A DNA stretch of 64,000 nt. Origin: Nitriliruptoraceae bacterium. Lineage in GTDB: Bacteria > Actinomycetota > Nitriliruptoria > Nitriliruptorales > Nitriliruptoraceae. A program made the translations under genes and the position numbers. This document shows positions 25,450 to 60,721 of the stretch, piece after piece (position 1 is the first letter of the stretch; each line of letters starts with the position of its first letter). The notes under the pieces are model-generated. The model was not told where the DNA came from, did not search any database, and saw only the letters and a program-made list of their open reading frames with translations. Location of the stretch: NCBI GenBank assembly GCA_007121785.1, contig SKJX01000070.1, positions 1 through 64,000 of the forward strand, in the 5' to 3' direction.

Positions 25450-25502
25450 CACGCCGAGGGGCCCCGGCGGCGCGGTCGTGGGTGTTCGGCGGCTCGGTGC
25501 GT

Positions 25503-29306: not shown

Positions 29307-30070
29307 CTGGGTTCCTCATGGTGAGGCTCGGTGTCGCGGATGCGCGCGACGAGCTGGGGGAGCAGCTCCTCGGCCGGGCCGGCGAGCCGGTGGTCGGCGG
29401 GTAGGACGGGCTCGGGGTTGACCTCCACGATCGTCGCTCCGGCGACCCGGGCCAGCTGGGGCAGGTCCGCGACCGGGTAGACCTCCGCCGAGGTGCCCAC
29501 CACCAGCAGCGTGGAGCACCGCTCGACCGCGTCGTGCGCGTCACGCAGGGCCTGTCGGGGCAGTGGCTCGCCGAAGAACACCGCGTCCGGTTTGAGTACC
29601 TCCTCGCACGTGGTGCAGCGGGGTGCGGTTCGGGCGGTCAGCGTCCCGCGGACCTCCTCGCGCGTGCGGCGATGATCGCACGTCAGGCAGACCAGCGTGC
29701 GGTTGGAGCCGTGGAGCTCGACGACGTGGGTGCTGCCGGCCCGCTGATGCAGGCCGTCCGCGTTCTGGGTCAGCACGTGGGTGACGACCCCGAGCTGCTC
29801 GAGCTCGGCGATCGCCCGATGGGCAGCGTTCGGTCGTGCCTGCTCGAGGATCTCGTCGAGGTCGAAGAGCATGCGCCACACCTTCTCGGGGTCGCGCTTG
29901 AAGGCCTCGATGTGGCCGTACTCCACCGGGTCGTAGCGGTTCCACAGCCCGTCGTCGCTGCGGAAGGTCGGGATGCCGGAGGCCAGGGACACGCCAGCTC
30001 CGGTCAGGCTGACGACCCCCCGGTCGGTGGCGGCCAGCGCCCGGGCTGCGGCGGCGAACTGATCGGTCAC
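29303..30070 (-). CDS. Sir2-family NAD-dependent protein deacylase (sirtuin)
   Basis: A 255-residue sirtuin. GAGVSLASGIPTFR at 24-37 and TQNADGLH at 101-108 bind NAD, His120 is the catalytic base, and the zinc cysteines are Cys128, Cys131, Cys152 and Cys155. In the acyl pocket, the Tyr and Arg that mark desuccinylases (SIRT5 Tyr102/Arg105) are Leu68 and Leu71 in my hand alignment, so neutral acyl-lysines are the likely targets. It lies between the LLM gene and the mutase gene with 4-base overlaps on both sides. Sirtuins control acyl-CoA synthetases by removing lysine acylation, which fits this ligase-rich region. Confidence 0.94.
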   Translation of the reverse strand: MTDQFAAAARALAATDRGVVSLTGAGVSLASGIPTFRSDDGLWNRYDPVEYGHIEAFKRDPEKVWRMLFDLDEILEQARPNAAHRAIAELEQLGVVTHVLTQNADGLHQRAGSTHVVELHGSNRTLVCLTCDHRRTREEVRGTLTARTAPRCTTCEEVLKPDAVFFGEPLPRQALRDAHDAVERCSTLLVVGTSAEVYPVADLPQLARVAGATIVEVNPEPVLPADHRLAGPAEELLPQLVARIRDTEPHHEEPR

Positions 30071-30996
30071 GCGACCCTCAGGGCGTCGGCCACCTGGTGT
30101 GCGCGGCGGATGAGTTCGTCGACGCTGCCCGCCGGCTCGAGGCCGCCGAGCATCACGGTCAGGCGGGTCGCGCCCGCCTGGCGGCGGCGATCGACCGCCG
30201 CGGGTAGGCGGGCGAGGTCGTCGTCGGTGTGCAGGATGAGGTCGACGCCGAAGTCGACGTCACCTCGGCCGTGGGTGGAAGCCTCCTGGCGTGCCAGTTC
30301 GAGCCCCTCCGGGATCCGTTCGAACGGCAAGCGGGGGTTGACCAGCCATCCGCTGCCGTGCCGTCCCAGCCTCCTGACGGCGGCATCGAAGCCGCCCGCC
30401 TCGCCGCCCCCGATCCACAGCAGGTCGGTGGCCGGGCGTGTGGGGCGAGGTTCGAGCGAGACGGCGTCGAAGCGGAAGTGCTCACCTTCGGCGCTGACAC
30501 GCGGCTCGTCGAACGCCTGCTCCAGGATCCCGAGCGCCTCGTCCATGCGCTGCCCGCGGGTGCGCGGGTCCCAGCCGAGCGCCGCCATCTCCGCCCGCAA
30601 CCACCCCGGGCCGACACCGAGCAGCAGCCGACCGCCGGAGAGCCGGTCGAGCGCGGCCGCCTGCTTCGCGAGCTCCAGCGGATGGCGCTGCGGGAGCACG
30701 ATGACCGAGGTCTCGAGCGCGAGCGACCGGGAGCAGCCGGCCGCGACCGCGAGGAAGGTCATCGCCTCCATCACCGGTTGCCCGGGGTGATGGGCCACGC
30801 GCCCGCCCGCCGCGTAGTGGTAGGCATCGGGATCCCAGGGGTAGGCCAGGTGGTCCTGGCACTGCACCCCGGCGTAGCCGAGCTCCTCGATCGCTTCGCA
30901 GAAGGCGCGTAGCGCCCCGAGATCGGCGAGGCAGGGCTGGTAGTTCACGTAGCCCACGGACACCGGTAGATCCCCGGTGAGGGCGGTCAGGTCCAT
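30067..30996 (-). CDS. LLM-class (F420-type) oxidoreductase, first gene of the mutase operon
   Basis: A 309-residue luciferase-like protein. VGYVNYQPCLADLG opens the barrel; ELGYAGVQCQDHLAYPWDPDAYHY near 43-66, SGGRLLLGVGPGWLRAEMAALGWDP near 130-154 and LLWIGGGEAGGFDAAVRRLGRHGSGW near 205 are the recognisable strands. It is very close to the product of 49553-50485 (same length, most blocks identical), so the two are paralogs from a duplication. ATG 30996 has GGGAG seven bases upstream. Its stop overlaps the sirtuin start. The open frame upstream of the ATG lacks homology. Confidence 0.9.
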   Translation of the reverse strand: MDLTALTGDLPVSVGYVNYQPCLADLGALRAFCEAIEELGYAGVQCQDHLAYPWDPDAYHYAAGGRVAHHPGQPVMEAMTFLAVAAGCSRSLALETSVIVLPQRHPLELAKQAAALDRLSGGRLLLGVGPGWLRAEMAALGWDPRTRGQRMDEALGILEQAFDEPRVSAEGEHFRFDAVSLEPRPTRPATDLLWIGGGEAGGFDAAVRRLGRHGSGWLVNPRLPFERIPEGLELARQEASTHGRGDVDFGVDLILHTDDDLARLPAAVDRRRQAGATRLTVMLGGLEPAGSVDELIRRAHQVADALRVA

Positions 30997-31039
30997 CACG
31001 GTGCTCCCAGCCGGCTCGACACGACACGTTTCCTTCGAC

Positions 31040-33899: not shown

Positions 33900-34586
33900 T
33901 CAGGTCGCCTGGAGGCGCTGGCCGAGCCCAGCGAGCGCCTCGGCGGGGTGCTCGGTGGGTACCTCACCTGCGAACGACCAGAAAAACCCGTGGCGTCGGA
34001 CGGGCGCGGGCAAGCTCTGGTCACCGAGGTGGTGCTTGTTGAGGCCCCCGCCGACGACCCCGGACTCCACACCCTCGGGCTCGGAGAGGATCGCCCCTGC
34101 CAGCCCCGCCGCTTCGATGGTCGAGACGACCTCGGCGGGTTCGGTCGGGTCGGGAGGCAGATAGACCACGGGAACGCGGTAGAAGCGGCAGGCGTTGCCG
34201 AGGCTGCGCAGGCGGGCCGGCTCCGCTGCCTCGTCGGGAGCCACGATCAGCACGTCCACCTCGCTCTCGCAGAAGGCTCGAGCCAGTGCGATGTCGACCG
34301 AGCAGACGACGCCCGCGGCCGCGCGTCCGCCCAGCAGTGGTCTGACCCGGCGCAGCACCTCCAGCCCGGTGTCACCCGGCGCCCCGAGTCCGACGGTGAC
34401 CGCGTCGGCGTGCAGCGCCGTGGCGGTCTCGACCAGCGCACGTGCCTGCCGCTGCGGGTCGGAGTCGTAGAGCGGGCCGGGCAACTGGCCGAGGTGGGCG
34501 ACGATCGATCCGAGCACCGGGATGTAGGGCGGGCGGGCCGGCTCTCCGCCGTGTAGCGCGGTCTTGACCAGATCCGCACTCTGCAT
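33900..34586 (-). CDS. Uroporphyrinogen-decarboxylase-like protein, short
   Basis: A 228-residue protein resembling the UroD/MtaA/CmuA barrel family: LVKTALHGGEPARPPYIPVLGSIVAHLGQLP at the N-terminus is the family's opening strand with its Arg-Pro-Pro pattern, and ALHADAVTVGLGAPGDTGLEVLRRVRP follows near residue 60. Typical family members have about 340 residues, so this one lacks roughly the last third, including the usual C-terminal His/Cys metal region. It may be a minimal relative or a degenerate gene. GGAGG lies eight bases before the ATG at 34586. It is divergent to the ketone-carboxylase operon and convergent with the LLM gene. Heme synthesis is not a likely role here. Confidence 0.7.
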   Translation of the reverse strand: MQSADLVKTALHGGEPARPPYIPVLGSIVAHLGQLPGPLYDSDPQRQARALVETATALHADAVTVGLGAPGDTGLEVLRRVRPLLGGRAAAGVVCSVDIALARAFCESEVDVLIVAPDEAAEPARLRSLGNACRFYRVPVVYLPPDPTEPAEVVSTIEAAGLAGAILSEPEGVESGVVGGGLNKHHLGDQSLPAPVRRHGFFWSFAGEVPTEHPAEALAGLGQRLQAT

Positions 34587-34760: not shown

Positions 34761-34843
34761 TGGGAGACGTTGGGAGACGTCGCGGCCGGGAGACCACAGG
34801 TCACAGAAGTGGCAGGGAATCCGGAAAGGGGCAGGGAATCCGG
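34761..34843. repeat. Two pairs of short direct repeats
   Basis: TGGGAGACGT occurs twice in tandem (34761-34770 and 34771-34780). GGCAGGGAATCCGG occurs at 34811-34824 and 34830-34843, a 19-base period. Both pairs are non-coding and lie between the ACGT motif and the carboxylase start. Confidence 0.7.
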
Positions 34844-34979: not shown

Positions 34980-36899
34980 GTGAGCGTCATCGGGAGCATC
35001 GATACGGGCGGCACATTCACGGACGGGCACTTCACCCGCGAGGGTCGCTCGGTCCGCGTCAAGGTGGAGACGACCCCGCACGACTTCACCGAGTGCTTCC
35101 TCGACTGCGTCGAGGCTGCCGCCGCGGAGCTTGGGTTCAACAGCCTCCAGGCGATGCTGCTCGAGACGGAGATCCTACGGTTCGCCTCGACCATCGCGAC
35201 CAACGCGATGATCGAGCACAAGGGACCGACGATCGGGGTGGCCGTCTCGCCCGGCCACGAGGACGACCTCTACGCTGACGGGCAGCGGCTCTACGAGCTG
35301 GGCCTGGTCGAGCGCGAACTGGTCACCTCGCTGGCCGAGCCGGGGGACGAGCAGTCGGTCCGCTCGTCGCTGCGTGGCCTGCTCGAGGGCGGCGCGCGGG
35401 TGCTCGTGGTCAGCCTGGCTGGCGGTGACCGCGAGCCCGACACCGAGTTCGGGGTCAAGCGCATCTACGAACGTGCCTATCCGCGCCACTACCTGGGTGC
35501 GGTGCCCTGCCTGCCTGCGACCGAGGTCAGTCTCCGCGAGGACGACGGGCGGCGGACGAACACCGCCGTGGTCAACGCCTATCTGCACCCCGAACTGGTG
35601 CGGGCGCTGTACAAGGCCGACGAGGACGTGCGCTCCCGTGGGTTGCGGCAGCCGCTGCTGATCGTCCACGGTTCGGGTGGGGTGGCGCGGGTGGCCAAGA
35701 CCCGTGCCATCGAGCAGTACAACTGTGGTCCGGCCGGTGGGGTGCACGGCGCCGCCATCATGGCCGAGCGCTACGAGCTCCCGCTGGCCCTGACCATCGA
35801 CATGGGCGGCACGTCGACCGACTACTCGGTCGTGAGGGATCATCAGGTGCCGTTCGACCTGGATCCGCACATCGAAGGTGTGCCGGTCTGGACGCCGCTG
35901 GTCCGGGTCGGTGCCTTCGGCTGCGGGGGCAGTTCGGTGATCAGCGGACGTCGCGACGGGTTCCAGGTCGGCCCCCAGTCGATGGGTGCCGCCCCCGGAC
36001 CGGCCTGCTACGGGCTCGGAGGTACCCAGCCGACGCCCACCGATGCACACGTGGTGCTCGGCACCCTCGACCCCGACAACTACCTCGGCGGGCGGCGCCG
36101 GCTCGATCCCGAACGCGCCCGCAACGCCCTCTCCGGCTTGGGAGACGGATCCGCAGAGGAGATCGCCTGGGAGGTGCACCGGGCCGTGGTCGACTGGGCA
36201 GCCTCCCATCTGCGCTCGGAGCTCCAAAGTGGTGAGGTGAGCCCCGATCAGGCGGCGTTGTTCGCCTTCGGAGGTGCCGGCGGGCTGTTCGGCGCCGATG
36301 TCGCCGCCGCGCTCGGGATCTCCAGGGTCTACGCCTTCGCGGAGTCCGCGGTGTTCTCGGCCTTCGGGGTGTCGACGATGGACGTCACACACATCTACGA
36401 CGTGGCGCTGGCCGACGGTGACCTGGACGCGATCGTCGCCGAGCTCGAGCGGCTCGAGCAGCGCGCCAGGCTCGACATGGCCGGGGAGGGCCTCGAGGGC
36501 CGTGAGATCATCTACCGCCTCGAAGCGGAGCTCGACGACGATCACGCCGAGCTGGATGCGGAGCCGTCCAACTGGCGCGCTGCGGTCGACAAGGTGCTCG
36601 ACCTCGAGCCTGGGTGGCTGCGCCTGCGCGCCTCGGTCCCGGTCGCCCGACCCCGGCTCGATCCCGAGCCAGAGGGCGACGTGGATCCCTCCGCCGCGCA
36701 GCGGGGCCATCGCGAGGTCTTCCTCGGTGGACGGCCGGGGCAGGCCGCGGTCTTCGACCGCGAGCTCCTGCGGCCCGGCATGGACGTCGAGGGTCCGGCG
36801 GTCATCGAAGCGCAGGACACCAGCACGTTGGTGCCGCAGGGATTCCGGTTGCACGTCGACGGCTACCACGCCGGCATCATCACCCCCCACGGAGGCTGA
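34980..36899 (+). CDS. Hydantoinase/oxoprolinase-type subunit A, ketone carboxylase-like (ApcA-like)
   Basis: A 639-residue HyuA-family protein of the ASKHA ATPase fold. The N-terminal phosphate-binding motif is IDTGGTFTD at about 7-15, the second is TIDMGGTSTDYSVV near 271, and GCGGSSVISGRRDGFQVGPQSMGAAPGPACYG follows near 316. It binds ATP and, in acetophenone carboxylase, activates bicarbonate or the ketone enol by phosphorylation. With the next three genes it reproduces the Apc order HyuA, small zinc protein, HyuA, HyuB. Acetone carboxylase and hydantoinase are alternatives but have a different gene order. GTG 34980 follows GGAGGAGGACGC. Confidence 0.9.
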   Translation: MSVIGSIDTGGTFTDGHFTREGRSVRVKVETTPHDFTECFLDCVEAAAAELGFNSLQAMLLETEILRFASTIATNAMIEHKGPTIGVAVSPGHEDDLYADGQRLYELGLVERELVTSLAEPGDEQSVRSSLRGLLEGGARVLVVSLAGGDREPDTEFGVKRIYERAYPRHYLGAVPCLPATEVSLREDDGRRTNTAVVNAYLHPELVRALYKADEDVRSRGLRQPLLIVHGSGGVARVAKTRAIEQYNCGPAGGVHGAAIMAERYELPLALTIDMGGTSTDYSVVRDHQVPFDLDPHIEGVPVWTPLVRVGAFGCGGSSVISGRRDGFQVGPQSMGAAPGPACYGLGGTQPTPTDAHVVLGTLDPDNYLGGRRRLDPERARNALSGLGDGSAEEIAWEVHRAVVDWAASHLRSELQSGEVSPDQAALFAFGGAGGLFGADVAAALGISRVYAFAESAVFSAFGVSTMDVTHIYDVALADGDLDAIVAELERLEQRARLDMAGEGLEGREIIYRLEAELDDDHAELDAEPSNWRAAVDKVLDLEPGWLRLRASVPVARPRLDPEPEGDVDPSAAQRGHREVFLGGRPGQAAVFDRELLRPGMDVEGPAVIEAQDTSTLVPQGFRLHVDGYHAGIITPHGG

Positions 36900-36901
36900 G
36901 C

Positions 36902-37243
36902 ATGTCACGGGTCCACATCACCGAGTACCTGGACATCGACACCGACCGCGAGTTGTGGTTGTGCAACCGATGCGGCCAGGAGTTGATCGGTGCGCGCGAG
37001 AACTACAAGCGCGGGTGCGTCGTCTACGAACGCGACCCGGACGAGATCATGCCGCCGATCTACCCGCCGGAGAAGACGGAGTTCTACCTCGGCGTGTCCC
37101 CGGGCTACGGCGTGTTCGTCGAGTTCTACTGCCCGGGTTGCGGGATCATGATCGAGAACGAGTTGCTGCCGGAAGGATACCCGCCCACGCACGATCTCGA
37201 GCTCGACATCGACGCACTCAAGGCGAAGGCGGAGCAGGCATGA
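36902..37243 (+). CDS. Small zinc-binding carboxylase subunit (ApcB / acetone-carboxylase-gamma-like)
   Basis: A 113-residue hydrophilic protein with two Cys pairs: Leu-Cys-Asn-Arg-Cys-Gly near residues 19-23 and Tyr-Cys-Pro-Gly-Cys-Gly near 77-81, with one more Cys near 38. This four-cysteine layout fits a structural zinc site, as in the 15-kDa subunit of acetophenone carboxylase and the gamma subunit of acetone carboxylase. The start at ATG 36902 comes three bases after the previous stop, with GGAGG overlapping the end of the previous gene; its own stop overlaps the next ATG (ATGA). Confidence 0.85.
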   Translation: MSRVHITEYLDIDTDRELWLCNRCGQELIGARENYKRGCVVYERDPDEIMPPIYPPEKTEFYLGVSPGYGVFVEFYCPGCGIMIENELLPEGYPPTHDLELDIDALKAKAEQA

Positions 37244-39444
37244 ACGAGCACCCGGTGACCGGAGACGGCGATGACGTCCAAGCGGGCGACGGGCACCTGA
37301 CCAACACGATCAACGTCGACATCGGTGGGACCTTCACCGACTGCTTCGTCAGCTACGAGGGCAGGCAGGCGTCGGGGAAGCAGGCGACCACCCGCTACCG
37401 GCTGACCCACGGCTTCAACGCGGCCATCGAGGAGGCCGCTGGCAAGCTCGGGGTCGGCGCTGACGAGTTGCTGCACGAGACCGACCTGGTGCGCTACGCG
37501 ACCACGTTGGCGATGAACGCGCTGATCGAGCGCAAGGGCCCGAAGCTCGGGTTGATCACCACGGCCGGCTACGAAGACACCGTCTTCATCGGCCGGGGCG
37601 CGCAGTGGCACGACGGCCAGCCGATGGAGCGCAAGCGCGAGATCGCACGCGGACGTCGACCGACGCCACTGATCCCTCGGGAGATGATCGTCGGGGTACG
37701 TGAGCGCATCGGCACCGACGGCGACGTGATCGTCCCCCTATGGGAGGACGACGTCCGCGAGGGTCTCCACCGGCTGGTGGATCAGGGAGCTCAAGGCTTC
37801 ATCGTCGCGCTCAACTTCGGGCACGTGAACCCCAAGCACGAGGAGATCGTGCGCGACATCATCCGGGAGGAGTTCCCCGACATCTTCCTCGGGGCCCAAC
37901 CGGTGCTGTTGTCCAGCGAGGTTGCGCCGCGCCGCAACGAGTACCAGCGCAGCATGACGGCGATCCTCTCGGCGTACCTGCACCGGACCTTCGCCGAGGA
38001 ACTGACCGAGCTCTCCGCCGTGCTGCGCGAGCGCGGTTACGGCCACTCGCTGTTCCTCGCGAACAATGCCGGAGGGGTCAACCCGCTCGAGCGCACCACC
38101 GCGGTCCAGACCTACAACGCGGGGCCGGTTGGCGCGGTGATCGGCGGCGAGCACGTCTTGCGTCAGTACGGCTTCCCCAACGCGATCATGACCGACATGG
38201 GGGGGACCTCGTTCGACATCTCCACGGTCGTCGACGTCGGCAGTGACGACGAGGGCGGCCATCACTTCTACGCGCAGATGCCCATGATCGACCGGTTCCG
38301 TGTGTCGATCTCGATGATCGAGACCCGCTCGATCGGTGCCGGCGGCGGGTCCATCGCCCGCTACAACGATCTGCTCGACATCCTGGAGGTCGGCCCCGAG
38401 TCGGCCGGTTCCAACCCGGGCCCCGCTTGCTTCGACCAGGGGGGTGACGAGCCGACCGTGACCGACGCCGACGTCGTGCTCGGCTACGTCAACCCCGACT
38501 ACTTCCTCGGGGGACAGATCCCGCTCAACGCCGAGGCGGCACACGACGCGGTGCGGCGCCACCTCGCCGAGCCCCTCGAGGTCTCGGTCGAGGAGGCCGC
38601 CTACCAGGTCCGACGGATCGTGGACGGGCAGATGGGCAACGAGATCTACAAGGAGACCAACCTCAAGGGGTTCGATCCACGTGAGTTCCGGCTGTTCGCG
38701 CTCGGCGGCGCTGGCCCCACCCACGCTTGCGGCTACGGAGCGCACGTGGAGACACCGGAGATCTACTCCTTCCCGTTCGCGTCGGTGTTCTCGGCCTACG
38801 GGATCGCCAACTCCGACTTCCGACGGGCCTACGAACAGTCGGTCAAGGTGATGCTCTACTCGCCTTCGGAGAAGGAGTGGCTCTGGGACCCTGACGAGTT
38901 CAACGACGTGGTCCGGGGCCTGCAGGAGGAGGCGCTGCGCGACGCCGAGGATCTGGGCGCGGGTCGGGTCCAGTTCTCCCTAGAGCTCGAGATGCGCTAC
39001 GGGTTGCAACCGCACCACACCCGCATCCTCTCGCCGCGGCTGTTCGTCGAGTCCGACGAGGACTGCGAGGAGATCTACCGCGCATTCGCGCGCGAGTACG
39101 AGCGCATCTTCTCCAAGGCGGCCACCTACCTCAAGGGCGGCGTGGAGATCCTCTCGTTCATCCTGTGGTCGGTGATCCCGACCCAGCGCATCCCGCTGCC
39201 TACCTTCGACCTCAGCGGCCCCGAACCCGACGACGCGCTCAAGGGACGGCGCCCGACCTTCTGGGGGTCGACCAAGGGGTGGGTCGAGTCGTCCGTGTAC
39301 GACCTGAGTCAGCTGAAGCCGGGCAACCGCATCGAGGGCCCGGCGGTCGTGGAAGCACCGGACACCACGGTGCTCGTCGACCCCAGCTGGAGCCTGCGGA
39401 TCGACCAGCACGCCAACTCGGTCATGGAGCGGGTGGAGACGTAG
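37240..39444 (+). CDS. Hydantoinase/oxoprolinase-type subunit A, second copy (ApcC-like)
   Basis: A 734-residue second HyuA-type ATPase. Phosphate motif VDIGGTFTDCFV at about 24-35, second ATP motif IMTDMGGTSFDIST near 317, followed by SIGAGGGSIARYNDLLDILEVGPESAGSNPGPACF near 364-398. Its C-terminal half is longer than that of the 34980 paralog, matching the larger 87-kDa subunit of acetophenone carboxylase against the 70-kDa one. ATG 37240 overlaps the preceding stop; long upstream extensions of the frame are shadows of the first subunit gene. Both subunits should sit in one complex with the HyuB-type product of the next gene. Confidence 0.9.
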   Translation: MNEHPVTGDGDDVQAGDGHLTNTINVDIGGTFTDCFVSYEGRQASGKQATTRYRLTHGFNAAIEEAAGKLGVGADELLHETDLVRYATTLAMNALIERKGPKLGLITTAGYEDTVFIGRGAQWHDGQPMERKREIARGRRPTPLIPREMIVGVRERIGTDGDVIVPLWEDDVREGLHRLVDQGAQGFIVALNFGHVNPKHEEIVRDIIREEFPDIFLGAQPVLLSSEVAPRRNEYQRSMTAILSAYLHRTFAEELTELSAVLRERGYGHSLFLANNAGGVNPLERTTAVQTYNAGPVGAVIGGEHVLRQYGFPNAIMTDMGGTSFDISTVVDVGSDDEGGHHFYAQMPMIDRFRVSISMIETRSIGAGGGSIARYNDLLDILEVGPESAGSNPGPACFDQGGDEPTVTDADVVLGYVNPDYFLGGQIPLNAEAAHDAVRRHLAEPLEVSVEEAAYQVRRIVDGQMGNEIYKETNLKGFDPREFRLFALGGAGPTHACGYGAHVETPEIYSFPFASVFSAYGIANSDFRRAYEQSVKVMLYSPSEKEWLWDPDEFNDVVRGLQEEALRDAEDLGAGRVQFSLELEMRYGLQPHHTRILSPRLFVESDEDCEEIYRAFAREYERIFSKAATYLKGGVEILSFILWSVIPTQRIPLPTFDLSGPEPDDALKGRRPTFWGSTKGWVESSVYDLSQLKPGNRIEGPAVVEAPDTTVLVDPSWSLRIDQHANSVMERVET

Positions 39445-39472
39445 ATCTGGGCCGGCGGCCCAAGGAGCAGAC

Positions 39473-41614
39473 ATGGAACGTGACGACCGCGACCGCGAGA
39501 TCCTCACCCGCTGGCGTCCAGAGCCACCGACGGAGCGCGAGCGACGGGCCCTCGAGGAGGTCGACTACGGCGACTTCGAGATCTACCGCAACAAGCTGGA
39601 GTTGGTGTGCTGGGAGGCCTACCAGACCTTCCAGCGCATGGGGGTGTCCCCGATGATCGAGGCTGGCGATGCCGCGGTGGGAATCTACACCCGGCTCGGT
39701 GACCTCGCGGTCGGGATCATGGGGACCCAGCTGCACCTGATCAACGCCTCGATCGGGCTGAAGTGGACGATGCGTCACTTCTACGACGAGGAATCGGTCG
39801 GCATCCGCGAAGGGGACATGTTCTACGTCAACGATGCGCTGTACGGCGGGATCCACAACAGCGACCAGATCCTCTACATGCCGTTCTTCGTCGACGGTGA
39901 GTTGATCGCCTGGGTGGCAGCAGCCTCCCATGAGGTGGAGACCGGCGCGATGGAGCCCGGTGGCAACCCACCGAGCGCGGAGAGCCGCTACGACGAGGGG
40001 CTGATCCTTTCACCGATCCGCATCGGGGAGAACTACACCTTGCGAGCGGATCTGATGGAGATGATGGAGAACCGCATCCGCGACCCCCGGATGCAGACGT
40101 TGGACGTCAAGGCGCGCGTCGCGGCGTGCTCGATCCTCGAGCGCCGCCTCCACGAGGTCGTCGAAAAGAAGGGCACCGAGTTCGTCATCGGTTCGATGCG
40201 TCGGATGATCGACGAGGGCAACGATGCGGCACGCAAGAAGCTGGCCGCCATGAACGATGGCATCTACCGCTCGACCGGGTTCCTCGACAACGCCGGCTCA
40301 GAGCGCTACGGGTTGATCCAGTGCATGGTGGAGGTGGAGAAGCGCGGTGACGAGGCGCACCTGCGCTTCTACGGCAGTCCTCGTGTCAAGGACGGCAACT
40401 TCAACATGTACCCGCACATGATGGTCGCGATGTTCGCGTGTTACATGTACCAGTTCCTGTTCTGGGAGCTGCCTGCGACCACCGGCTACTACACGCCGTT
40501 CTCGTTCGAGTTCCAGAAGGACTCGTTCTTCGACGCCGACGAGGAGGACGCGACCTCCCTGGGGGTGGCCACGACGGGGCAGGTCATCTCGCTCGTACAC
40601 GAGGCGTTCGAGAAGATGAAGTTCGGCTCGCCCTACCACGACCATGTCATGGCTCCGTGGCCTGGCACATCGTCGACCACCGCCTTCGCGGGCCTGAGCA
40701 CCGAGGGTGTCGAGTTCGGAGCCTGGGACCAGGGTCAGCCCAACGGCATCGGGCAGGGCGCACGCTGGGACTACGACGGGCTCGACACGGCCGGGTTCGT
40801 GTGGTGCGCGATCGGCGAGTACCTCGATGTCGAGCAGATCGAGGAGAACTACCCGGTCGCCGCCATCTTCCGATCGCGCTTCTGGCGTGACGGACCGGGG
40901 ATGGGCAAGTTCCGCGGGGGCCGATCGATGACCGGGCTCTACCAGGTGCGCGGGACCCCGATGCTCTATGCGGTGGTGATGGGAGGCTTCTCCGGCCGGC
41001 CGATGGCGCCGGGGCTGTTCGGCGGCTACCCGGGCCGACCACTGGCCGGCGCGCTCATCCGCGACAACAACCTCGACGAGTTGATCGAGCAGGGGCGGGT
41101 CCCGACCGACATCTACGAAGCCGTCGAGCGGCTCGAGGGCGACTGGCAGTTCACCCACAGCAACTGGGGTGAGGAGAAGATCTACCACCATGACTGCTGG
41201 ATCGGCACGGCCCCGAGCGGTCCGGGGTACGGCGACGTCCTCGAACGTGACCCCGACCTGGTGATGAAGGACCTGCGCGAGGATGCGCTCAGCCACCGCT
41301 TCGCGCGCGACATCTACCAGGTGGTCTACGACGAGGAGACCCTGCTGTTCGACGCCGAGGCCACGGAACTCAAGCGCAAGGAAGAACGCGAGAACCGCAT
41401 CGCCCGTGCGACGGCCTACGACGACTGGCAGCCGGGGTGGGCCAAGAAGCGTCCACCCGAACGGGTGCTTCAGGAGTACGGATTCTGGCCGCACGGCTCG
41501 GCGGGACGGATGATGCTGTCGGTGGAGCCGGTCTCCGAGGACTACCTGCCAGTGGAGGTGCGGGACGGCCTCCGACCTCCGGCGGCCGGCATCATCCGCT
41601 CGCGCGATCTCTAG
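39473..41614 (+). CDS. Hydantoinase/oxoprolinase-type subunit B, ketone carboxylase-like (ApcD-like)
   Basis: A 713-residue HyuB-family protein. The core reads FYVNDALYGGIHNSDQILYMPFFVDGELIAWVAAASHEVETGAMEPGG near 117-165, followed by the acidic substrate-site region and the later block GGRSMTGLYQVRG near 482. In acetophenone carboxylase this subunit carries the carboxylation site that joins the activated ketone and carboxyphosphate. Many tyrosines and tryptophans are seen but not assigned. Start ATG 39473 with AAGGAGC upstream, 28 bases after the second HyuA gene. Confidence 0.9.
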   Translation: MERDDRDREILTRWRPEPPTERERRALEEVDYGDFEIYRNKLELVCWEAYQTFQRMGVSPMIEAGDAAVGIYTRLGDLAVGIMGTQLHLINASIGLKWTMRHFYDEESVGIREGDMFYVNDALYGGIHNSDQILYMPFFVDGELIAWVAAASHEVETGAMEPGGNPPSAESRYDEGLILSPIRIGENYTLRADLMEMMENRIRDPRMQTLDVKARVAACSILERRLHEVVEKKGTEFVIGSMRRMIDEGNDAARKKLAAMNDGIYRSTGFLDNAGSERYGLIQCMVEVEKRGDEAHLRFYGSPRVKDGNFNMYPHMMVAMFACYMYQFLFWELPATTGYYTPFSFEFQKDSFFDADEEDATSLGVATTGQVISLVHEAFEKMKFGSPYHDHVMAPWPGTSSTTAFAGLSTEGVEFGAWDQGQPNGIGQGARWDYDGLDTAGFVWCAIGEYLDVEQIEENYPVAAIFRSRFWRDGPGMGKFRGGRSMTGLYQVRGTPMLYAVVMGGFSGRPMAPGLFGGYPGRPLAGALIRDNNLDELIEQGRVPTDIYEAVERLEGDWQFTHSNWGEEKIYHHDCWIGTAPSGPGYGDVLERDPDLVMKDLREDALSHRFARDIYQVVYDEETLLFDAEATELKRKEERENRIARATAYDDWQPGWAKKRPPERVLQEYGFWPHGSAGRMMLSVEPVSEDYLPVEVRDGLRPPAAGIIRSRDL

Positions 41615-41629
41615 ACGGAAGGTACCCAG

Positions 41630-42097
41630 ATGGCATTCGAGTCCAAGCAGAGCACCAAGAACGATGCGATCCCGTACTTCACGAAGGCGTGGATCGAAGA
41701 GGTCGTGGAGTGGACCAACGCTGATCCCAAGATGGAGCGCATCGCCCGGAGGATGTACGAGAAACACTGCTACATCGTGCTCAACTGCCCCGGTAACACC
41801 GACCGGCTGGGGATGTTCCACTTCGAGGCCGGAAAGATCATCGACTGGGACTACGAGGAGTATCCATCGCCTGCGGACTTCTCGGACATGCCGGTGCTCG
41901 ATGGCGCGCAGTACATCACCACCGCGGACTACGAGTTCATGAAGAAGATCAACACCAAGCAGGTCAACTCCATGAAGGCGCTGATGTCCAACGAGATGCA
42001 GGTGCAGGGCAACCGATCACGCATGATGAAGCAGGTCAAGCAGTTGCAGCACTGGCAGGACCTCTTCGCTGAGGTCCCGGTGCAGTACGACGTATGA
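41630..42097 (+). CDS. SCP2-like (sterol carrier) domain protein
   Basis: A 155-residue hydrophilic protein. Its C-terminal half has the SCP-2 pattern: a YITTADYEFMKKINTKQVNSMKALMSNEMQVQGNRSRMMKQVKQL stretch like the x-x-x-L-x-x-G-K-x-x-P-x-x-A-F-M-x-G-K-x-K-V-x-G-N segment of SCP-2 proteins, followed by a final helix. Such domains bind acyl or sterol lipids in a hydrophobic tunnel. It occupies the place of the 34-kDa ApcE subunit in the acetophenone operon but is not similar to it in size. Possibly a substrate carrier or a new small subunit of the carboxylase. Start ATG 41630, ribosome site GGAAGGT; the stop overlaps the next start. Confidence 0.72.
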   Translation: MAFESKQSTKNDAIPYFTKAWIEEVVEWTNADPKMERIARRMYEKHCYIVLNCPGNTDRLGMFHFEAGKIIDWDYEEYPSPADFSDMPVLDGAQYITTADYEFMKKINTKQVNSMKALMSNEMQVQGNRSRMMKQVKQLQHWQDLFAEVPVQYDV

Positions 42098-43479
42098 GCC
42101 ACCTCATGACCCCCACCGCCGCCCCCGACGGGACGTACTACGACCGCGAACTCGAGACGACGCCCTGGGAGCAGGTGCAGCAGGCCACGTTCGAGAAAGC
42201 CCAGCGGCAGATCGAGCGGGTCTACGAGCGTTCCGTGGTCTACCGCGAGCGCTTCGACGAGGCCGGTGTGAAGCCGGCTGATGTCCGTGTGCCGGAGGAC
42301 CTCGCGCAGCTGCCCTTCTTCGACAAGGAGGTCGAGCGCGAGAGCCAGGACCGGTTCCCGCCGTTCGGTGGGCACCTAGCCGTCGACCCCGTCGACGTCG
42401 TCCGCGTCCACGCCTCGTCGGGGACGACCGGTCGTCCGACCTTCTTCGCGCTGACGGCCAGGGACCTGGACACCTGGAACCGCATCATGGCGCGCAGCTT
42501 CTACACGATGGGGATGCGCGACGACGACGTCTACGCCCTGCTGGGCAACCTGTCGATGTTCGTCGGTGGCATCCCGGCCCTCACGGCCACCGAGTCACTG
42601 GGTGCCACCGCGCTGCCGATCGGGGCGACGGCCGGAACCCAGCGCACCCTGGAGCTGATGCGGGACCTCGGCACCACGCTGCTGGGCGCGACTCCGAGCT
42701 TCGCGGTGTACCTGGCCGAGCTCGTCGAGCAGCTGCTGGGGATCCCCGCCCGTGAGCTCGGACTTCGGCGGATGATGGTCGGAGGGGAGCCGGGCGGGCA
42801 GATCCCCGCTGTCCGTGAGCAGATCGAGGAGGCGTGGGGCTGCGAGATCCGAGATGTCATGGGCATCGGCGAGTTCGCCGGCGCGATGTGGGCGGAGTCC
42901 GACGACCGTGACGGCATGCACTTCTGCGGGCAGGCGGAGATCCATCTCGAGCTGATCGACCCGGACACCGCCGAACCCATCCCGTTCGAGGACGGCGCGA
43001 CCGGCGAGCTGGTCTACACCGCCGTCGAACGTGAGGCCGTGCCGATGATCCGGTTCCGCAGCCACGACCACGTCCTGGTGCGGACGCGTGAGGTGCCGTC
43101 CGGCCGGACCGCGCCGAGGGTGACCACGCTTGGCCGCACCGATGACATGCTGATCGTGCGGGGGATCAACGTCTTCCCCTCGGCGGTGCGCGACGTCGTG
43201 GCCTCGTTCGCGCCCCGAACGACCGGGCATATCCAGATCGTGCTCGACAACCCCGGACCGATCGTCTCGCCTCCCGTCCCGGTGGAGATCGAGGTGGCCG
43301 ACGATCTCGGTAGCGACGAACGTGAGACGTTGGCCGACCAGATCGCCGACCGCGTCCGCCAACAGCTCAACTTCCGTGCCGAGGTGCGTTTCATCCCGGC
43401 CGGATCGCTGCCCAGGACCTCGCTGAAGACGGACTACTTCAAACGGCTCTGGGAGGGCGATGGTGAGGGTTCGAACTGA
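42094..43479 (+). CDS. PaaK-like phenylacetate-CoA-ligase family enzyme
   Basis: A 461-residue aryl/acyl-CoA ligase of the PaaK group rather than the ANL groups elsewhere in this window. VHASSGTTGRPTFFALTARDL near residue 107-127 is the ATP-binding loop with Thr in place of Lys, as in PaaK; GIGEFAGAMWAE near 258 takes the place of the A5 motif, and TLGRTDDMLIVRGINVFPSAV near 348-368 is the PaaK hinge. Starting at ATG 42094 (ATGA overlap), it ends the ketone-carboxylase operon, so it is the natural enzyme to turn the carboxylated ketone (a beta-keto acid) into its CoA ester, as benzoylacetate-CoA ligase does in the acetophenone pathway. Confidence 0.9.
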   Translation: MSHLMTPTAAPDGTYYDRELETTPWEQVQQATFEKAQRQIERVYERSVVYRERFDEAGVKPADVRVPEDLAQLPFFDKEVERESQDRFPPFGGHLAVDPVDVVRVHASSGTTGRPTFFALTARDLDTWNRIMARSFYTMGMRDDDVYALLGNLSMFVGGIPALTATESLGATALPIGATAGTQRTLELMRDLGTTLLGATPSFAVYLAELVEQLLGIPARELGLRRMMVGGEPGGQIPAVREQIEEAWGCEIRDVMGIGEFAGAMWAESDDRDGMHFCGQAEIHLELIDPDTAEPIPFEDGATGELVYTAVEREAVPMIRFRSHDHVLVRTREVPSGRTAPRVTTLGRTDDMLIVRGINVFPSAVRDVVASFAPRTTGHIQIVLDNPGPIVSPPVPVEIEVADDLGSDERETLADQIADRVRQQLNFRAEVRFIPAGSLPRTSLKTDYFKRLWEGDGEGSN

Positions 43480-43824: not shown

Positions 43825-43922
43825 AGACGCGCCTCCCAGCAGCCGGGGCCAGCGCCGGAGCGTACCAACGTTGCCAGGCCCCCCGCCGCGTCGCCGGGAC
43901 CGGCCCGTCCAAGGCGACAGCC

Positions 43923-44543: not shown

Positions 44544-45860
44544 ATGAGGAGCGAAGCCAGGGTACGTTTGGTCAGTCTGCTGGGACTCGTCGCACTGCTC
44601 GCGGCGGCCTGCGGTGAGACGACGGTCGAGGAGGAGGAGGTCGCCGACGACCCCGAACCCGAGGAGGTCGTCGAGGACGATGAGCCCGAGGATGAGCCAG
44701 AGGACGAGGAGGCGGAACCGGAGGAGGAAGCCGCCGCTGCTGACGGTGAGCCCGTCGTGATGGGCATCATCAACCAGGAGGACACCCCAGCTGGCTCGTT
44801 CCCCGAGCAGCGTGAGGCGATCGAGGCGGCGGTCGAGTACGTCAACGACGAGTTCGGCGGGGTCGAAGGGCGTCCGATCGAACTGGTGACCGAGATCACC
44901 GATGGATCACCGGAGTCGTCCTCCGGCGCGGCCACGACACTGTTGGAGCAGGATCCACTGCTGATCATGCCCGGCACGGACTTCGGGACGGCGGCCTCGC
45001 TCCCGATCTTCGAGGACGCCGGCGTGCCCTACGTCGGTGGGGTGCCACTGCTACCGCCCGAGCTGACCTCCGAGATCTCGTTCTCGTTTGTCGGCGGCAA
45101 CGTCGCAGCCTTCCCGGGGCAGGCGCGCTACCTCGCGGAGGAGCTCGAGGCCGACCACGTGAGCATCATCTACACCGACAACCCGGCAGGGCTCGCGGCT
45201 GCGGAGACCTTCTCGCAGGGACCGCTCGAATCGCTCGGCGTCAGCGAGGTCAGCCTCATCCCGGAGGAGGCGGCCGCAGCCGACTTCACGCCCGCAGTGT
45301 CGGCAGCCAACGACGGCGACCCGGACGCGATCATGGTGCTGTTCGCGGCGCAGGGTTGCTCGCGCATCATGCAGGCGGCTGCCTCGCTGGGCGTGGACAC
45401 GCCGTTGGTCTACCCGGGCTCGTGCATGGACATCGACGTGCTCGAAGCCGGCGGTGAGGGCGCGGAGGGTGCCTACTTCAACTCCGAGCACATCGTCTAC
45501 AGCGATACCGACGACGAGGACGTTGCGCTCTACCGCGAGATCATGGAGGAGTACCGGCCGGACGCCAAGGTCTCGAGCTACTCCCAGTCAGCGTTCGCCA
45601 GCGTCATGAACGTCTACGAGATCATGGCCGAGATCGGCGCCGACGAGCTCACTTCCGAGTCGCTCATCGAGGCGCTGCGTCAGACCGAGGACCGCGAGAG
45701 CTTCATGACCGACAACTACACCTGTGACGGAGAACAGGTCCCAGGCGCACCGTCGGTGTGCAACGCCTCGGTGCGGATCGTGCAGATCCAGGATGGCGAG
45801 CCGGTCGACCTGTTCGACGAGTGGTTCGACGGCAGCGATCTGATCGAGGCCGAGGGGTGA
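44544..45860 (+). CDS. Branched-chain-type ABC importer, substrate-binding lipoprotein (system 2)
   Basis: A 438-residue LivK-type receptor. Signal peptide MRSEARVRLVSLLGLVALL, lipobox LAAAC with Cys23, then an acidic Glu/Asp/Pro tether at about 25-65 before the binding domain begins (VVMGIINQEDTPAG). Two central lobes follow with the EAAVEYVNDEFGGVEGRPIELV segment near 95. The acidic tether is longer than in most homologs and is shared by all three receptors here. Ligand unknown; an operon with LivH-LivM, LivG and LivF follows. GGAGGAGAGAG precedes the ATG. Confidence 0.93.
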   Translation: MRSEARVRLVSLLGLVALLAAACGETTVEEEEVADDPEPEEVVEDDEPEDEPEDEEAEPEEEAAAADGEPVVMGIINQEDTPAGSFPEQREAIEAAVEYVNDEFGGVEGRPIELVTEITDGSPESSSGAATTLLEQDPLLIMPGTDFGTAASLPIFEDAGVPYVGGVPLLPPELTSEISFSFVGGNVAAFPGQARYLAEELEADHVSIIYTDNPAGLAAAETFSQGPLESLGVSEVSLIPEEAAAADFTPAVSAANDGDPDAIMVLFAAQGCSRIMQAAASLGVDTPLVYPGSCMDIDVLEAGGEGAEGAYFNSEHIVYSDTDDEDVALYREIMEEYRPDAKVSSYSQSAFASVMNVYEIMAEIGADELTSESLIEALRQTEDRESFMTDNYTCDGEQVPGAPSVCNASVRIVQIQDGEPVDLFDEWFDGSDLIEAEG

Positions 45861-45867
45861 TCCGAGA

Positions 45868-45901
45868 GCGGGTGGGGCGGCACGACGACCGCCCCACCCG
45901 C
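45868..45901 (+). terminator. Strong hairpin after binding-protein gene 2
   Basis: GCGGGTGGGGCGG (45868-45880) and CCGCCCCACCCGC (45889-45901) form a perfect 13-base stem with an 8-base loop, starting seven bases after the stop codon. No T-run follows, and the permease gene starts 79 bases on. It is placed like the hairpins after receptor genes 1 and 3, so a role in differential expression by processing or partial termination is likely. Confidence 0.65.
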
Positions 45902-45980
45902 CGGGCCGCCGGGTAGGCCGCGCTCATGTGGTTTGCCCCGAGCGGGGCAGTGCGGTGAAGCGACGAACTCGAGGTGACTG

Positions 45981-47972
45981 GTGGGCGACTATCTGGTATT
46001 CGCGCTGGCCGGGATGGGGACCGGCGCGGTGTATGCGTCGCTTGGCCTGGGCGTGGTGCTCGGCTACAAGGGGTCGGGCATCATCAACTTCGCCCAGGGG
46101 GCGATGGCGATGTACGTCGCCTTCGCCTTCGACCAACTGCGCCGCACCGGCGAGCTCATCCTGCCGGTCATCGGTCTGCCGACACGGATCGGCCTGGGGG
46201 GTCCGGCGCCGTTCCCCGTCGCGTTCTTCCTGGCGTTGCTGCTCGCGGCGCTGCTCGGGCTGATGGTCTACTTCTTCGTCTTCCGGCCGCTGCGCTACGC
46301 CCCGACCCTGGCCAAGGTGGTCGCCTCGATCGGCTTCATGATCGCCCTGCAGGCCATGGTGGTTCTGCGCTTCGGCACGGCGAACCGGTCCTTTGCGCCG
46401 GTGCTGGCCGCCGAGCCGATCGAGATGCTCGGCGTGCAAGTGCCTCGGGACCGGCTCACACTGGGGCTGCTGACGGTGCTCATGGCCGTGGCGTTGTGGG
46501 CGTTCTTCCGTTTCACCCGCTTCGGCACAGCCACCCGTGCGGCCGCCGAGAACGAGAAGGGGGCGGTGCTACTCGGCTTCTCCCCGGACGTGCTGGCCGC
46601 GGTCAACTGGATGCTCGCCACGGTCATCGCCGGGCTGGCCGGCATGCTGCTCGGCGGCATCACGGCGCTCGACCCCGTCACCTACACCCTGGCGATCGTG
46701 CCGGCGCTGGGTGCCGCGCTGGTCGGGCGGTTCAACTCGTTCGGGGCGACGGCCGCCGCCGGCCTGCTGATCGGCATGGGCCAGTCGGTCATCACGCGGC
46801 TGCAACTGGACGTGGACTGGCTGCCTACAGGCCTGCGTGATGGGCTGCCGTTCCTGGTGATCATCGTCGCGCTGGTGGTCGCCGGACGGTCGTTGCCGAT
46901 GCGTGGTGAGCTCTCACAGGAACGCCTGCCCTTCGCCAATCGCCCGAAGGACATCCCGCTCTACGCCGTCGCCGGCCTCGGCGTGGCCGTCGTGGCGTTG
47001 TACATCACCGAGGGCGGCCTCCGTCTGGCGCTGATCACCTCCATGATCGGGGCGATCCTGTGCCTGTCGTTGGTGGTGCTCACCGGCTTCCTCGGACAGA
47101 TCTCGCTCGCGCAGATGACCTTCGCTGGTGCAGCCGGGTTTGCGCTGAGCGCGTTCTCGATGCAGATGGGGCTGCCACTGGTGGTCGCTGCACCGCTTAG
47201 TGCCGTGGTCGCCGGGGTGCTCGGATTGCTGGTGGGCATCCCCGCTCTTCGTGTCCGCGGCGTCAACCTCGCGGTGGTGACCCTCGGTGCCGCGGTGGCC
47301 GTGGAGGCCTTCATCTTCCGCAACCCGGACTACACGGGGGGGTTCGAGGGTGCTCGCATCCCATCTCCCACCTTCGCCGGGTTCAACCTCGGTATCGGCG
47401 GCCAAGGGGGAGGGGACTTCCCCCGGGTCGCCTTCGGGCTGTTCGTGCTCACGATCCTCACGTTGGCGGCACTTGCCGTGGTCAACCTGCGGAAGAGCGC
47501 GACCGGGCGCCGCATGCTGGCGGTGCGTGCCAACGAACGTGCGGCCGCGGCCGCACGCATCAACGTGACCTGGATCAAGCTGCTCACCTTCGGGCTCGCC
47601 TCGTTCATCGCGGGTCTCGGGGGTGCGCTGCTCGCCTTCCGCCAGGGCCAGATCTCGTTCGAGTCCTTCGGCGTGTTCGTCTCGCTGTCGCTCCTGGCCG
47701 CCGCGGTGCTCGGCGGGATCTCGAGCGTGTCGGGGGCGATCGTCGGTGGTGGCATCGTCTCCGGCGGGATCGCGTTCGTGGCGCTCGACCGGTGGCTCGG
47801 AGTGGGCCAGTACCAGCTCCTGATCAGCGGTCTCGCGCTGATCTTCACCGCGATCCTCAGCCCGCAAGGCATCTCCGGTGCGGTCCGTGACGGCCTCGAT
47901 CCGGCCGCGGAGAACCCCAACCCACGCAAGCGACTTGCCGGCCTCGGCTCCGGCGAGAGGATCCTGTCATGA
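45981..47972 (+). CDS. LivH-LivM fusion permease (system 2)
   Basis: A 663-residue membrane protein holding both permease types. The LivH half (about 1-300) has GAVYASLGLGVVLGYKGSGIINFAQGAMAMY near 14-44; the LivM half (about 320-640) has GFLGQISLAQMTFAGAAGFALSAF near 367-390 and the VRANERAAAAARINV loop near 514. The start is GTG 45981 with a GAGGTGA ribosome site. The two halves are joined by a hydrophilic segment (RGELSQERLPFANRPKDIP). Fusing permeases rather than permease and ATPase sets this system apart from importer 1. Confidence 0.93.
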   Translation: MGDYLVFALAGMGTGAVYASLGLGVVLGYKGSGIINFAQGAMAMYVAFAFDQLRRTGELILPVIGLPTRIGLGGPAPFPVAFFLALLLAALLGLMVYFFVFRPLRYAPTLAKVVASIGFMIALQAMVVLRFGTANRSFAPVLAAEPIEMLGVQVPRDRLTLGLLTVLMAVALWAFFRFTRFGTATRAAAENEKGAVLLGFSPDVLAAVNWMLATVIAGLAGMLLGGITALDPVTYTLAIVPALGAALVGRFNSFGATAAAGLLIGMGQSVITRLQLDVDWLPTGLRDGLPFLVIIVALVVAGRSLPMRGELSQERLPFANRPKDIPLYAVAGLGVAVVALYITEGGLRLALITSMIGAILCLSLVVLTGFLGQISLAQMTFAGAAGFALSAFSMQMGLPLVVAAPLSAVVAGVLGLLVGIPALRVRGVNLAVVTLGAAVAVEAFIFRNPDYTGGFEGARIPSPTFAGFNLGIGGQGGGDFPRVAFGLFVLTILTLAALAVVNLRKSATGRRMLAVRANERAAAAARINVTWIKLLTFGLASFIAGLGGALLAFRQGQISFESFGVFVSLSLLAAAVLGGISSVSGAIVGGGIVSGGIAFVALDRWLGVGQYQLLISGLALIFTAILSPQGISGAVRDGLDPAAENPNPRKRLAGLGSGERILS

Positions 47973-48823
47973 GCACCACTGCCGGGGTATCGCCCGACCC
48001 GAGCAGGGCCGCCGACCACGAGGCACTGCTCGCGGTACGAGATCTGACGGTGTCCTACGGTGGCCTGACAGCGGTCAAGCGCGTCTCGCTGGACATCGCG
48101 CCGGGTTCCGTGGTGGGCATGATCGGGCCCAACGGGGCGGGCAAGACGACGTTCATCGACGCGTTGATGGGCTACACCCCGGCACAGGGTCGGATCGAGT
48201 TCCTCGGGCAACGCATCGATCAGCTCTCGGTCCACCGCCGCGCCATGCTCGGACTGACCCGTACGTTCCAGTCGCTGGAGCTGTTCGAGGACCTCACCGT
48301 CCGTGAGAACCTGCAGGTTTCGGCGGAGGATCCCAAGTGGTGGACGATATTCCTCGATGTGATCATCCCCAACCGTGACGTGCGCGCCCCGCGGGTCGAC
48401 GAACTGCTCGACGCCGTGGGGTTGAAGAACTACGAGGACATGCTGCCCGCCCACCTGTCCCACGGCGACCGCCAGGCCGTCAGCATCGCCAGAGCGATGG
48501 TCTCCGACGCCCGTCTGCTGCTGCTCGATGAGCCCGGCGCCGGACTCGACCGCAACGAGAAGGAGGGGCTCAGCCAGCTGTTGCGTGAGGTCGCGGCCGA
48601 CGGCACGACGATCTTCCTGATCGACCACGATATGGATCTGGTCATGCCCACCTGCGATCACATCTTCGTGCTGGAGTTCGGCGAGCTCATCGCATCGGGG
48701 CCACCGGATCGGATCCGCAGCGACCCGCGGGTGATCGAGGCGTACCTTGGTACGTCCGGTGACAACACCGAGGTGGCTGCCGCAGAGCGGGCGGCTGGTG
48801 AGCCTGGAGGCGAGGACCGATGA
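47969..48823 (+). CDS. livG: ABC importer ATPase, LivG type (system 2)
   Basis: A 284-residue ATPase. Walker [10 protein letters not shown] near residue 52, [20 protein letters not shown] near 91-110 as in LivG, signature LSHGDRQ near 156, Walker [13 protein letters not shown] near 177 and the switch His in IDHDMD near 212. ATG 47969 overlaps the permease stop, and the gene's own stop overlaps the livF start. The N-terminal 24 residues are unlike the family core. Confidence 0.94.
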
Positions 48824-59123: not shown

Positions 59124-60719
<1,596 letters not shown>

Positions 60720-60721
60720 TC

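Follow-up and report, generated by a model that had tools for sequence, protein, structure and literature searches.

The locus probably encodes a five-subunit ketone carboxylase

Which enzyme does the gene cluster at positions 34980-43479 of contig SKJX01000070.1 from a Nitriliruptoraceae bacterium (GCA_007121785.1) encode, and on which compound does it act? The window analyzed here is a stretch of 64,000 nt (contig positions 1-64,000), in which a preliminary description had noted an operon like that of the ATP-dependent acetophenone carboxylase (Apc) of Aromatoleum. Our analysis of the sequence favors, with a probability of about 0.82, a complete five-subunit, biotin-independent Apc-type ketone carboxylase with a compact and divergent epsilon subunit. 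The gene content, the subunit identities, the intact ATP and zinc motifs, the phylogenetic placement, and the conserved linkage are directly established. The locus comprises the following features.

33900..34586, minus strand: epsilon subunit (ApcE-like, predicted URO-D fold), compact, 228 aa, divergent from apcA (profile, fold, sister orthologues)
34761..34843, no strand: short direct repeats between epsilon and apcA (read from sequence)
34980..36899, plus strand: ApcA-like alpha-prime subunit of 639 aa with the second ASKHA kinase module, proposed to phosphorylate bicarbonate (5L9W match, tree, NCBIfam ApcA)
36902..37243, plus strand: ApcB-like gamma subunit of 113 aa with a zinc site of four cysteines (C21/C24/C77/C80) (5L9W match, cysteines)
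37240..39444, plus strand: ApcC-like alpha subunit of 734 aa, proposed to phosphorylate the ketone (5L9W match, tree, pocket residues)
39473..41614, plus strand: ApcD-like beta subunit, 713 aa (5L9W match)
41630..42097, plus strand: SCP2-like small protein, 155 aa (weak Pfam SCP2 match; relatives match SCP2)
42094..43479, plus strand: PaaK-type AMP-forming CoA ligase of 461 aa, proposed to act on a beta-keto acid (PDB matches, linked orthologues)

A check of the open reading frames (ORFs) found the four core genes (34980-41614; 639, 113, 734, and 713 aa, in this order) and the PaaK-type ligase just as previously listed, while the 155-aa gene and the epsilon gene had been overlooked. The first two genes are separated by 2 nt, the second and third overlap by 4 nt, and 28 nt separate the third from apcD; a further 15 nt lead to the 155-aa gene, whose end overlaps the ligase gene by 4 nt. 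Spacing this tight (2, -4, 28, 15, and -4 nt) indicates a single operon, on which Pfam recognizes Hydantoinase_A twice, Acetone_carb_G, Hydantoinase_B, and AMP-binding. A 1056-aa ORF (36274-39444) was rejected as a single gene, as its N-terminal part overlaps apcA out of frame and the true start lies at 37240. The reported agreement with the Aromatoleum subunits in order and approximate size is correct, except that 87 kDa for the largest was slightly off; the published masses are 70, 15, 80, 75, and about 32-34 kDa (PMC5214803).

For each core subunit, phmmer searches of the PDB ranked Apc (5L9W) above the acetone carboxylases and hydantoinases. Specifically, alpha-prime matched 5L9W first (E = 3e-101), and the 5L9W matches of gamma (8.7e-30), alpha (3.7e-188), and beta (5.4e-113) compare with acetone carboxylase matches at 1e-7, 6e-101, and 4.5e-43, respectively; all four 5L9W matches far exceed what chance would give. 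Similarly, NCBIfam placed ApcA, ApcB, ApcC, and ApcD first for the respective subunits. The lengths of alpha (734 aa) and gamma (113 aa) are Apc-like, that of beta less so. Both alpha and alpha-prime carry the DxGGT, DMGGT, and GxxPGP ATP motifs described for the Apc alpha-type subunits (PMC5214803), giving two intact ASKHA ATP sites, and the gamma zinc cysteines C21, C24, C77, and C80 are invariant across 12 sequences.

To place the alpha-type subunits, we used a FastTree phylogeny of 135 sequences (related loci, the 5L9W alpha and alpha-prime, 5SVB, 6YRA, and 7HK5; one tree, one method). The window alpha falls in a 25-member clade containing the 5L9W alpha (support 0.957), and the window alpha-prime, a subunit unique to Apc, lies inside an alpha-prime clade of 34 members (0.719), itself part of a clade of 54 (0.99). 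Neither acetone carboxylase nor the two hydantoinases (6YRA, 7HK5) fall within the Apc clades, the 5SVB alpha grouping with locus L040. Thus, the HyuA-type subunits group with Apc and not with oxoprolinase or N-methylhydantoinase; grouping with the latter had been named beforehand as the outcome that would speak against an Apc-like operon. Altogether, the PDB ranks, the tree, and the subunit content uphold the earlier proposal of an Apc-type ketone carboxylase operon that includes a CoA ligase.

A shortened epsilon subunit is predicted outside the operon

At related loci, the ORF just downstream of apcD or apcB matches both Pfam URO-D and NCBIfam ApcE, the latter at 7e-13 and 1e-18 in two cases. 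Neither Pfam nor NCBIfam recognizes URO-D or ApcE in the window gene at 33900-34586 (minus strand); on the other hand, an epsilon profile of 52 sequences that excluded the window and its sisters finds it at E = 2.6e-22 (hmmsearch). The AlphaFold2 model, computed with 37 relatives, reaches a pLDDT of 92.4, and its best PDB fold match is 9FOU (ApcE; E = 3.7e-7; TM 0.64, and 0.70 normalized by query), followed by uroporphyrinogen decarboxylases. That ApcE possesses a URO-D-type fold is already on record in the PDB through 9FOU, the solved ApcE released in December 2025; the role of epsilon was unclear at the time of the Apc structure paper (PMC5214803).

The compact epsilon occurs once in the window's own genome and once per apc operon in sister genomes G424 and G425: G424 has one copy (47% identity) about 9.5 kb from apcD, and G425 has two copies alongside two apc operons. 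G426, a short contig from an incomplete metagenome-assembled genome (MAG), gave no match. The profile and the fold model together predict that this gene encodes the fifth Apc subunit, in a shortened form and outside the operon. With about 220 residues, it is the smallest epsilon in this comparison and would show how much of the URO-D fold is required for the reaction. The 155-aa gene, also considered for this role, was rejected, since it is SCP2-like whereas epsilon sits at 33900-34586.

Between the epsilon gene and apcA, the 18-nt repeat AAGKGGCAGGGAATCCGG occurs twice, at 34807 and 34826, and GGGAGACGT occurs twice near 34763 (this second pair read directly from the sequence). These repeat pairs are a possible operator.

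The ligase and the family context are consistent with a beta-keto acid product

In the PDB, the ligase at 42094-43479 matches PaaK (6.6e-64) and 2-hydroxyisobutyryl-CoA synthetase (1.2e-61). Since its NCBIfam PaaK score is 261 bits against a cut-off of 646, we call it PaaK-type and not PaaK. Its orthologues linked to apc in sister loci are 66-72% identical. A PaaK-type ligase does close the operon, as previously described, but it does not make the operon distinct, since 14 of 54 related loci carry one. These 54 loci have enough flanking sequence and were chosen by similarity, so that the counts are descriptive: alpha-prime is present in 41, epsilon in 39, a FadD-type ligase in 18, a CoA-transferase in 4, and a thiolase in 14. 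The CoA ligase, CoA-transferase, and thiolase counts support a beta-keto acid product for the family.

For the window enzyme, we infer the carboxylase activity, the order of steps, and the substrate; the mechanism proposed here follows that of Apc. Alpha would phosphorylate the ketone enolate with ATP, and alpha-prime would phosphorylate bicarbonate with a second ATP, with beta and gamma forming the frame. Epsilon would close the complex, in which CO2 from carboxyphosphate would add to the phosphoenol to yield a beta-keto acid. The PaaK-type ligase would then convert this acid to its CoA ester. A thiolase from elsewhere in the genome may cleave this ester, or, with a cyclic substrate, hydrolysis may open it. 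The genome does encode thiolases, one of which shares 70% identity with an apc-neighboring thiolase of the sister genome MAS3.bin127.

The 155-aa protein matches Pfam SCP2 at E = 0.02 (15.7 bits, under the 21.3 cut-off), whereas its relatives reach 9e-9, above the cut-off; perhaps it carries a hydrophobic ligand. It also matches proteins encoded beside the gamma genes of acetone-carboxylase-type loci (phmmer, 6e-5). A wider search weakened a specific tie of this family to ketone carboxylases, as relatives also occur in unrelated contexts; in L148, for instance, the neighbors are a CoA ligase gene and an aldehyde-ferredoxin-oxidoreductase-like gene. A class-level search with the 155-aa protein returned only itself, and its predicted structure has a pLDDT of 50, which makes the Foldseek result meaningless. 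SCP2-domain genes lie directly 3' of the gamma gene in acetone-carboxylase-type loci of several actinobacterial genomes (L040, 8712-9119; L010, L011, L012, L015, and L027).

Several observations weigh against the Apc assignment. The NCBIfam equivalog cut-offs of ApcA-D are not reached (411/1250, 121/250, 671/1500, and 419/1500 bits); with scores at about one-quarter to one-half of the cut-offs, the enzyme belongs to the Apc type, but its sequence does not warrant calling it acetophenone carboxylase. In addition, beta (713 aa) is nearer in length to the acetone carboxylase beta (about 720) than to the Apc beta (684) (PMC5214803), epsilon is about 90 residues shorter than is usual in its family, and the alpha fingerprint RERIGTDG only partially matches R/KERiDsxG. 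The window's contig carries no thiolase. Finally, the proposed bicarbonate-site residues E248 and K281 of alpha-prime are N and D in the window and its closest relatives. Among the 34 clade members, EDK occurs in 18 and NDD in 10, so that the suggested bicarbonate residues are not universal.

Genes linked to apc recur in distant genomes

Further genes of the window may belong to the same pathway.

44544..49530, plus strand: Liv-type ABC transporter with binding protein, fused permease, and two ATPases (Pfam)
30067..30999, minus strand: F420-type LLM oxidoreductase (Pfam; reciprocal best hit, 66%, beside epsilon in FR_3)
26330..29306, minus strand: B12-dependent acyl-CoA mutase with genes for a small (26330-26746) and a large (27609-29306) subunit (PDB match)
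23713..25452, minus strand: CoA-transferase-like protein, 579 aa, possible module gene (family search)

We compared these with the apc loci of two sister MAGs, FR_3 (Acidimicrobiia; L043/L165) and MAS3.bin127 (L042, L044, and L166), the reciprocal-best-hit test covering these stretches only. Their operons share with the window apcABCD (51-71% identity), the compact epsilon, the PaaK-type ligase, a MerR regulator, an LLM protein, and an FAD enzyme. They differ in that the SCP2-like gene was not found there, epsilon lies farther from the core, and beta is duplicated in L044; the apcC of FR_3 was partly missed by the gene caller. The duplication (L044, 12559-16880) consists of two consecutive full-length apcD copies, each 68% identical to that of the window, and may be a real duplication or an assembly artefact.

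On the window's contig, the apc-flanking reciprocal best hits are epsilon (46-48%), the PaaK-type ligase (66-72%), the LLM proteins at 30067 (66%) and 11320 (65-73%), and a Mo enzyme that resembles formate dehydrogenase (57-59%; contig position 72355). The Liv transporter, which likely takes up the substrate or a precursor, has its counterpart (51-64%) beside apc in FR_3. Other counterparts of genes near the sister apc operons lie on a second contig of the same genome, C78: a CoA-transferase-like pair (67 and 81%; a two-gene pair in the sister clusters as well), MeaB (60%), the FAD enzyme (66-79%), an acyl-CoA dehydrogenase (ACAD; 68%), MerR, a thiolase (70%), and an acyl-CoA mutase (44-51%). 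The ACAD encoded in the window (12409-13566) was rejected as orthologue of the apc-linked ACAD, as the C78 copy fits better (72% versus 47%). The large subunit of the window mutase has 2-hydroxyisobutyryl-CoA mutase (4R3U) as its best PDB match (E = 2.4e-129). A mutase gene also lies near apc in FR_3.

As side observations, the window mutase resembles 4R3U in the Ile of its QQI motif and in a D-x-P-T motif, and an amidohydrolase gene sits between its subunit genes. The Mo enzyme (L122, 8355-10364; contig 72355-74367), a molybdopterin protein encoded near epsilon in L044, L165, and L166, is not close to enzymes of the ethylbenzene dehydrogenase type. The C78 genes form a catabolic cluster (L164, 480-19874) with a ketosteroid-dehydrogenase-like flavoprotein, three ACADs, a second B12 mutase, MeaB, a thiolase, and the CoA-transferase-like pair. 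The ORF at 43540-44049 (minus strand), between ligase and transporter, has no family match; it recalls the end of a GntR/FCD regulator and overlaps a plus-strand membrane-protein ORF (43923-44462). The same island (59124-62740, plus strand) also encodes a methylcrotonyl-CoA-carboxylase-type pair belonging to the biotin-dependent acyl-CoA carboxylases.

A substrate other than acetophenone is plausible

Another ketone, in place of acetophenone or alongside it, is a plausible substrate, given how far the NCBIfam cut-offs are from being reached. To that extent the different aromatic or alicyclic ketone of the preliminary description is plausible, while an alicyclic or terpenoid ketone remains a guess. 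In a tentative extension of the Apc-type assignment, the operon would belong to a larger conserved pathway acting on an alicyclic or terpenoid-like ketone; there, the CoA-transferase-like pair would open a cyclic beta-ketoacyl-CoA and the B12 mutase would straighten a branched acyl-CoA. The reciprocal best hits (46-81%) around apc in two distant MAGs argue for such a pathway; they comprise epsilon, PaaK-type ligase, LLM, mutase, MeaB, CoA-transferase pair, FAD enzyme, transporter, and Mo enzyme. Moreover, the C78 flavoprotein resembles 3-ketosteroid and 4-oxocyclohexanecarboxylate dehydrogenases and a C78 ACAD resembles cyclohexanecarbonyl-CoA dehydrogenase, both below cut-offs, which suggests an alicyclic or terpenoid-like substrate. 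Ring opening by a CoA-transferase-like pair has a precedent in IpdAB. However, these families are large and promiscuous, part of the set lies on C78, and NCBIfam returned no IpdAB match for the CoA-transferase-like genes. In addition, beyond the sisters, a mutase gene is found near apc in just 2 of 92 other loci (L047 and L115). Slightly more speculative still is the full proposal, in which a new Apc branch with a compact epsilon would start aerobic breakdown of alicyclic or terpenoid-like ketones in Actinomycetota, through carboxylation, CoA ligation, hydrolytic or thiolytic cleavage, and B12 rearrangement, by an undescribed gene set recurring in distant genomes.

We consider a true acetophenone (aryl methyl ketone) carboxylase, paired with a ligase of the benzoylacetate type, unlikely. 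Apc is the closest characterized enzyme for all subunits, and the ligase is related to phenylacetate-CoA ligase. At the proposed ketone-pocket positions of alpha (L81, F281, N282, P285, I333, Q344, and T345), the corresponding window residues are M, Y, N, P, I, E, and T; N282, P285, I333, and T345 are thus kept and position 281 is aromatic, being F or Y in 25 of 25 clade members and I or M in acetone carboxylase and the hydantoinases. Against an aryl substrate stand the replacements of Q344 by E and L81 by M, the distance from the NCBIfam cut-offs, and conserved neighbors (the LLM protein, the B12 mutase, and the C78 flavoprotein) that are not suggestive of one. Furthermore, in line with the lack of ethylbenzene genes noted previously, the part of the window that was annotated contains no ethylbenzene dehydrogenase.

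An enzyme acting on a small aliphatic ketone (acetone or butanone), functionally an acetone carboxylase, is more doubtful again. It would belong to the same superfamily, and SCP2-like relatives do lie beside acetone-carboxylase-type operons, but acetone carboxylase has three subunits, without alpha-prime and epsilon (PMC5214803). The window gamma is the short Apc form rather than the long one, and the 5SVB/5M45 clade, with the 5SVB alpha beside L040, does not include the window. Lastly, an ATP-dependent hydantoinase, oxoprolinase, or lactamase is very improbable, since, despite the HyuA/HyuB homology and secondary NCBIfam matches of the core subunits to caprolactamase CapA/CapB, hydantoinases have alpha and beta only (PMC5214803), whereas this locus adds gamma, alpha-prime, epsilon, and a CoA ligase and falls outside the 6YRA/7HK5 group. 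On subunit content and tree, an acetone carboxylase, hydantoinase, or oxoprolinase identity was rejected.

Relation to known carboxylases and aerobic context

The Aromatoleum aromaticum system (ApcABCDE and benzoylacetate-CoA ligase; 5L9W, 9FOU) has the same order of alpha-prime, gamma, alpha, beta, and CoA ligase; it provides the best match of every core subunit and shares the URO-D-fold epsilon and the ATP and zinc motifs. In contrast, the window has a short divergent epsilon, an SCP2-like gene between beta and ligase, and a PaaK-type ligase, along with the residue replacements in alpha and alpha-prime and the scores below NCBIfam cut-offs given above. Plasmid pRHL2 of Rhodococcus jostii RHA1, on which we found a full five-gene apc set, and a Rhodococcus qingshengii plasmid carry alpha-prime, gamma, alpha, beta, and epsilon as in the window, and pRHL2 additionally has an SCP2 protein nearby. 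Here, however, beta is 28-29% identical, a full-length epsilon lies downstream of beta, and RHA1 has a CoA-transferase-like gene in place of the PaaK-type ligase. The acetone carboxylase AcxABC (5SVB, 5M45) shares homologous alpha, beta, and gamma subunits and biotin-independent, ATP-driven ketone carboxylation; it lacks alpha-prime and epsilon, has a longer gamma, and lies outside the Apc clade. The hydroxyphenylethanone carboxylase HpeCBA of Rhodococcus rhodochrous GD02 likewise couples aerobic actinobacterial ketone carboxylation to CoA ligation, but it is not homologous and its substrates are phosphorylated ketones; it was rejected as Apc-like, since it is a biotin enzyme (PMC9618137).

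The window's genome carries haem-copper oxidase genes, so the host can probably respire oxygen. Acetone carboxylase occurs in an aerobic actinobacterium, Rhodococcus rhodochrous B276. Aerobic actinobacterial use of this chemistry had been considered notable, an argument weakened by Apc-like operons annotated earlier in Rhodococcus ruber Chol-4 (PMC6498646) and Paraconexibacter (PMC11737030), by the RHA1 set, and by Aromatoleum itself, which degrades acetophenone through Apc with and without oxygen (PMC4729919). A single Apc has been characterized, from a denitrifier (PMC5214803), with no later one in the literature searched. Among the actinobacterial Apc-like operons found here, none is backed by biochemical proof. 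As of 2022, the GD02 authors knew of no aerobic aromatic carboxylation pathway besides the biotin-dependent Hpe route (PMC9618137), so proof of activity for the window enzyme would still be useful. If active, the enzyme would provide aerobic, biotin-free, ATP-driven ketone carboxylation in Actinomycetota. It is a sister to the sole characterized Apc, and its linked genes suggest a catabolic route. The locus is an ordinary but well-supported new branch of a known enzyme type; the compact epsilon and the recurrent gene set are additions to the preliminary description.

The family itself is broad. Of 397 genomes sampled from the phylum, 21 encode the gamma subunit, acetone-carboxylase-type ones included; in a public genome set it occurs at >500 loci, spread over numerous phyla of bacteria and also some archaea. 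Gordonia asplenii and Nostocoides japonicum are among the species with apc operons. An apc-like five-gene set on a Haloterrigena alkaliphila plasmid (L126, 3389-10980) comprises alpha-prime, a URO-D-type epsilon, gamma, alpha, and a beta 39% identical to that of the window.

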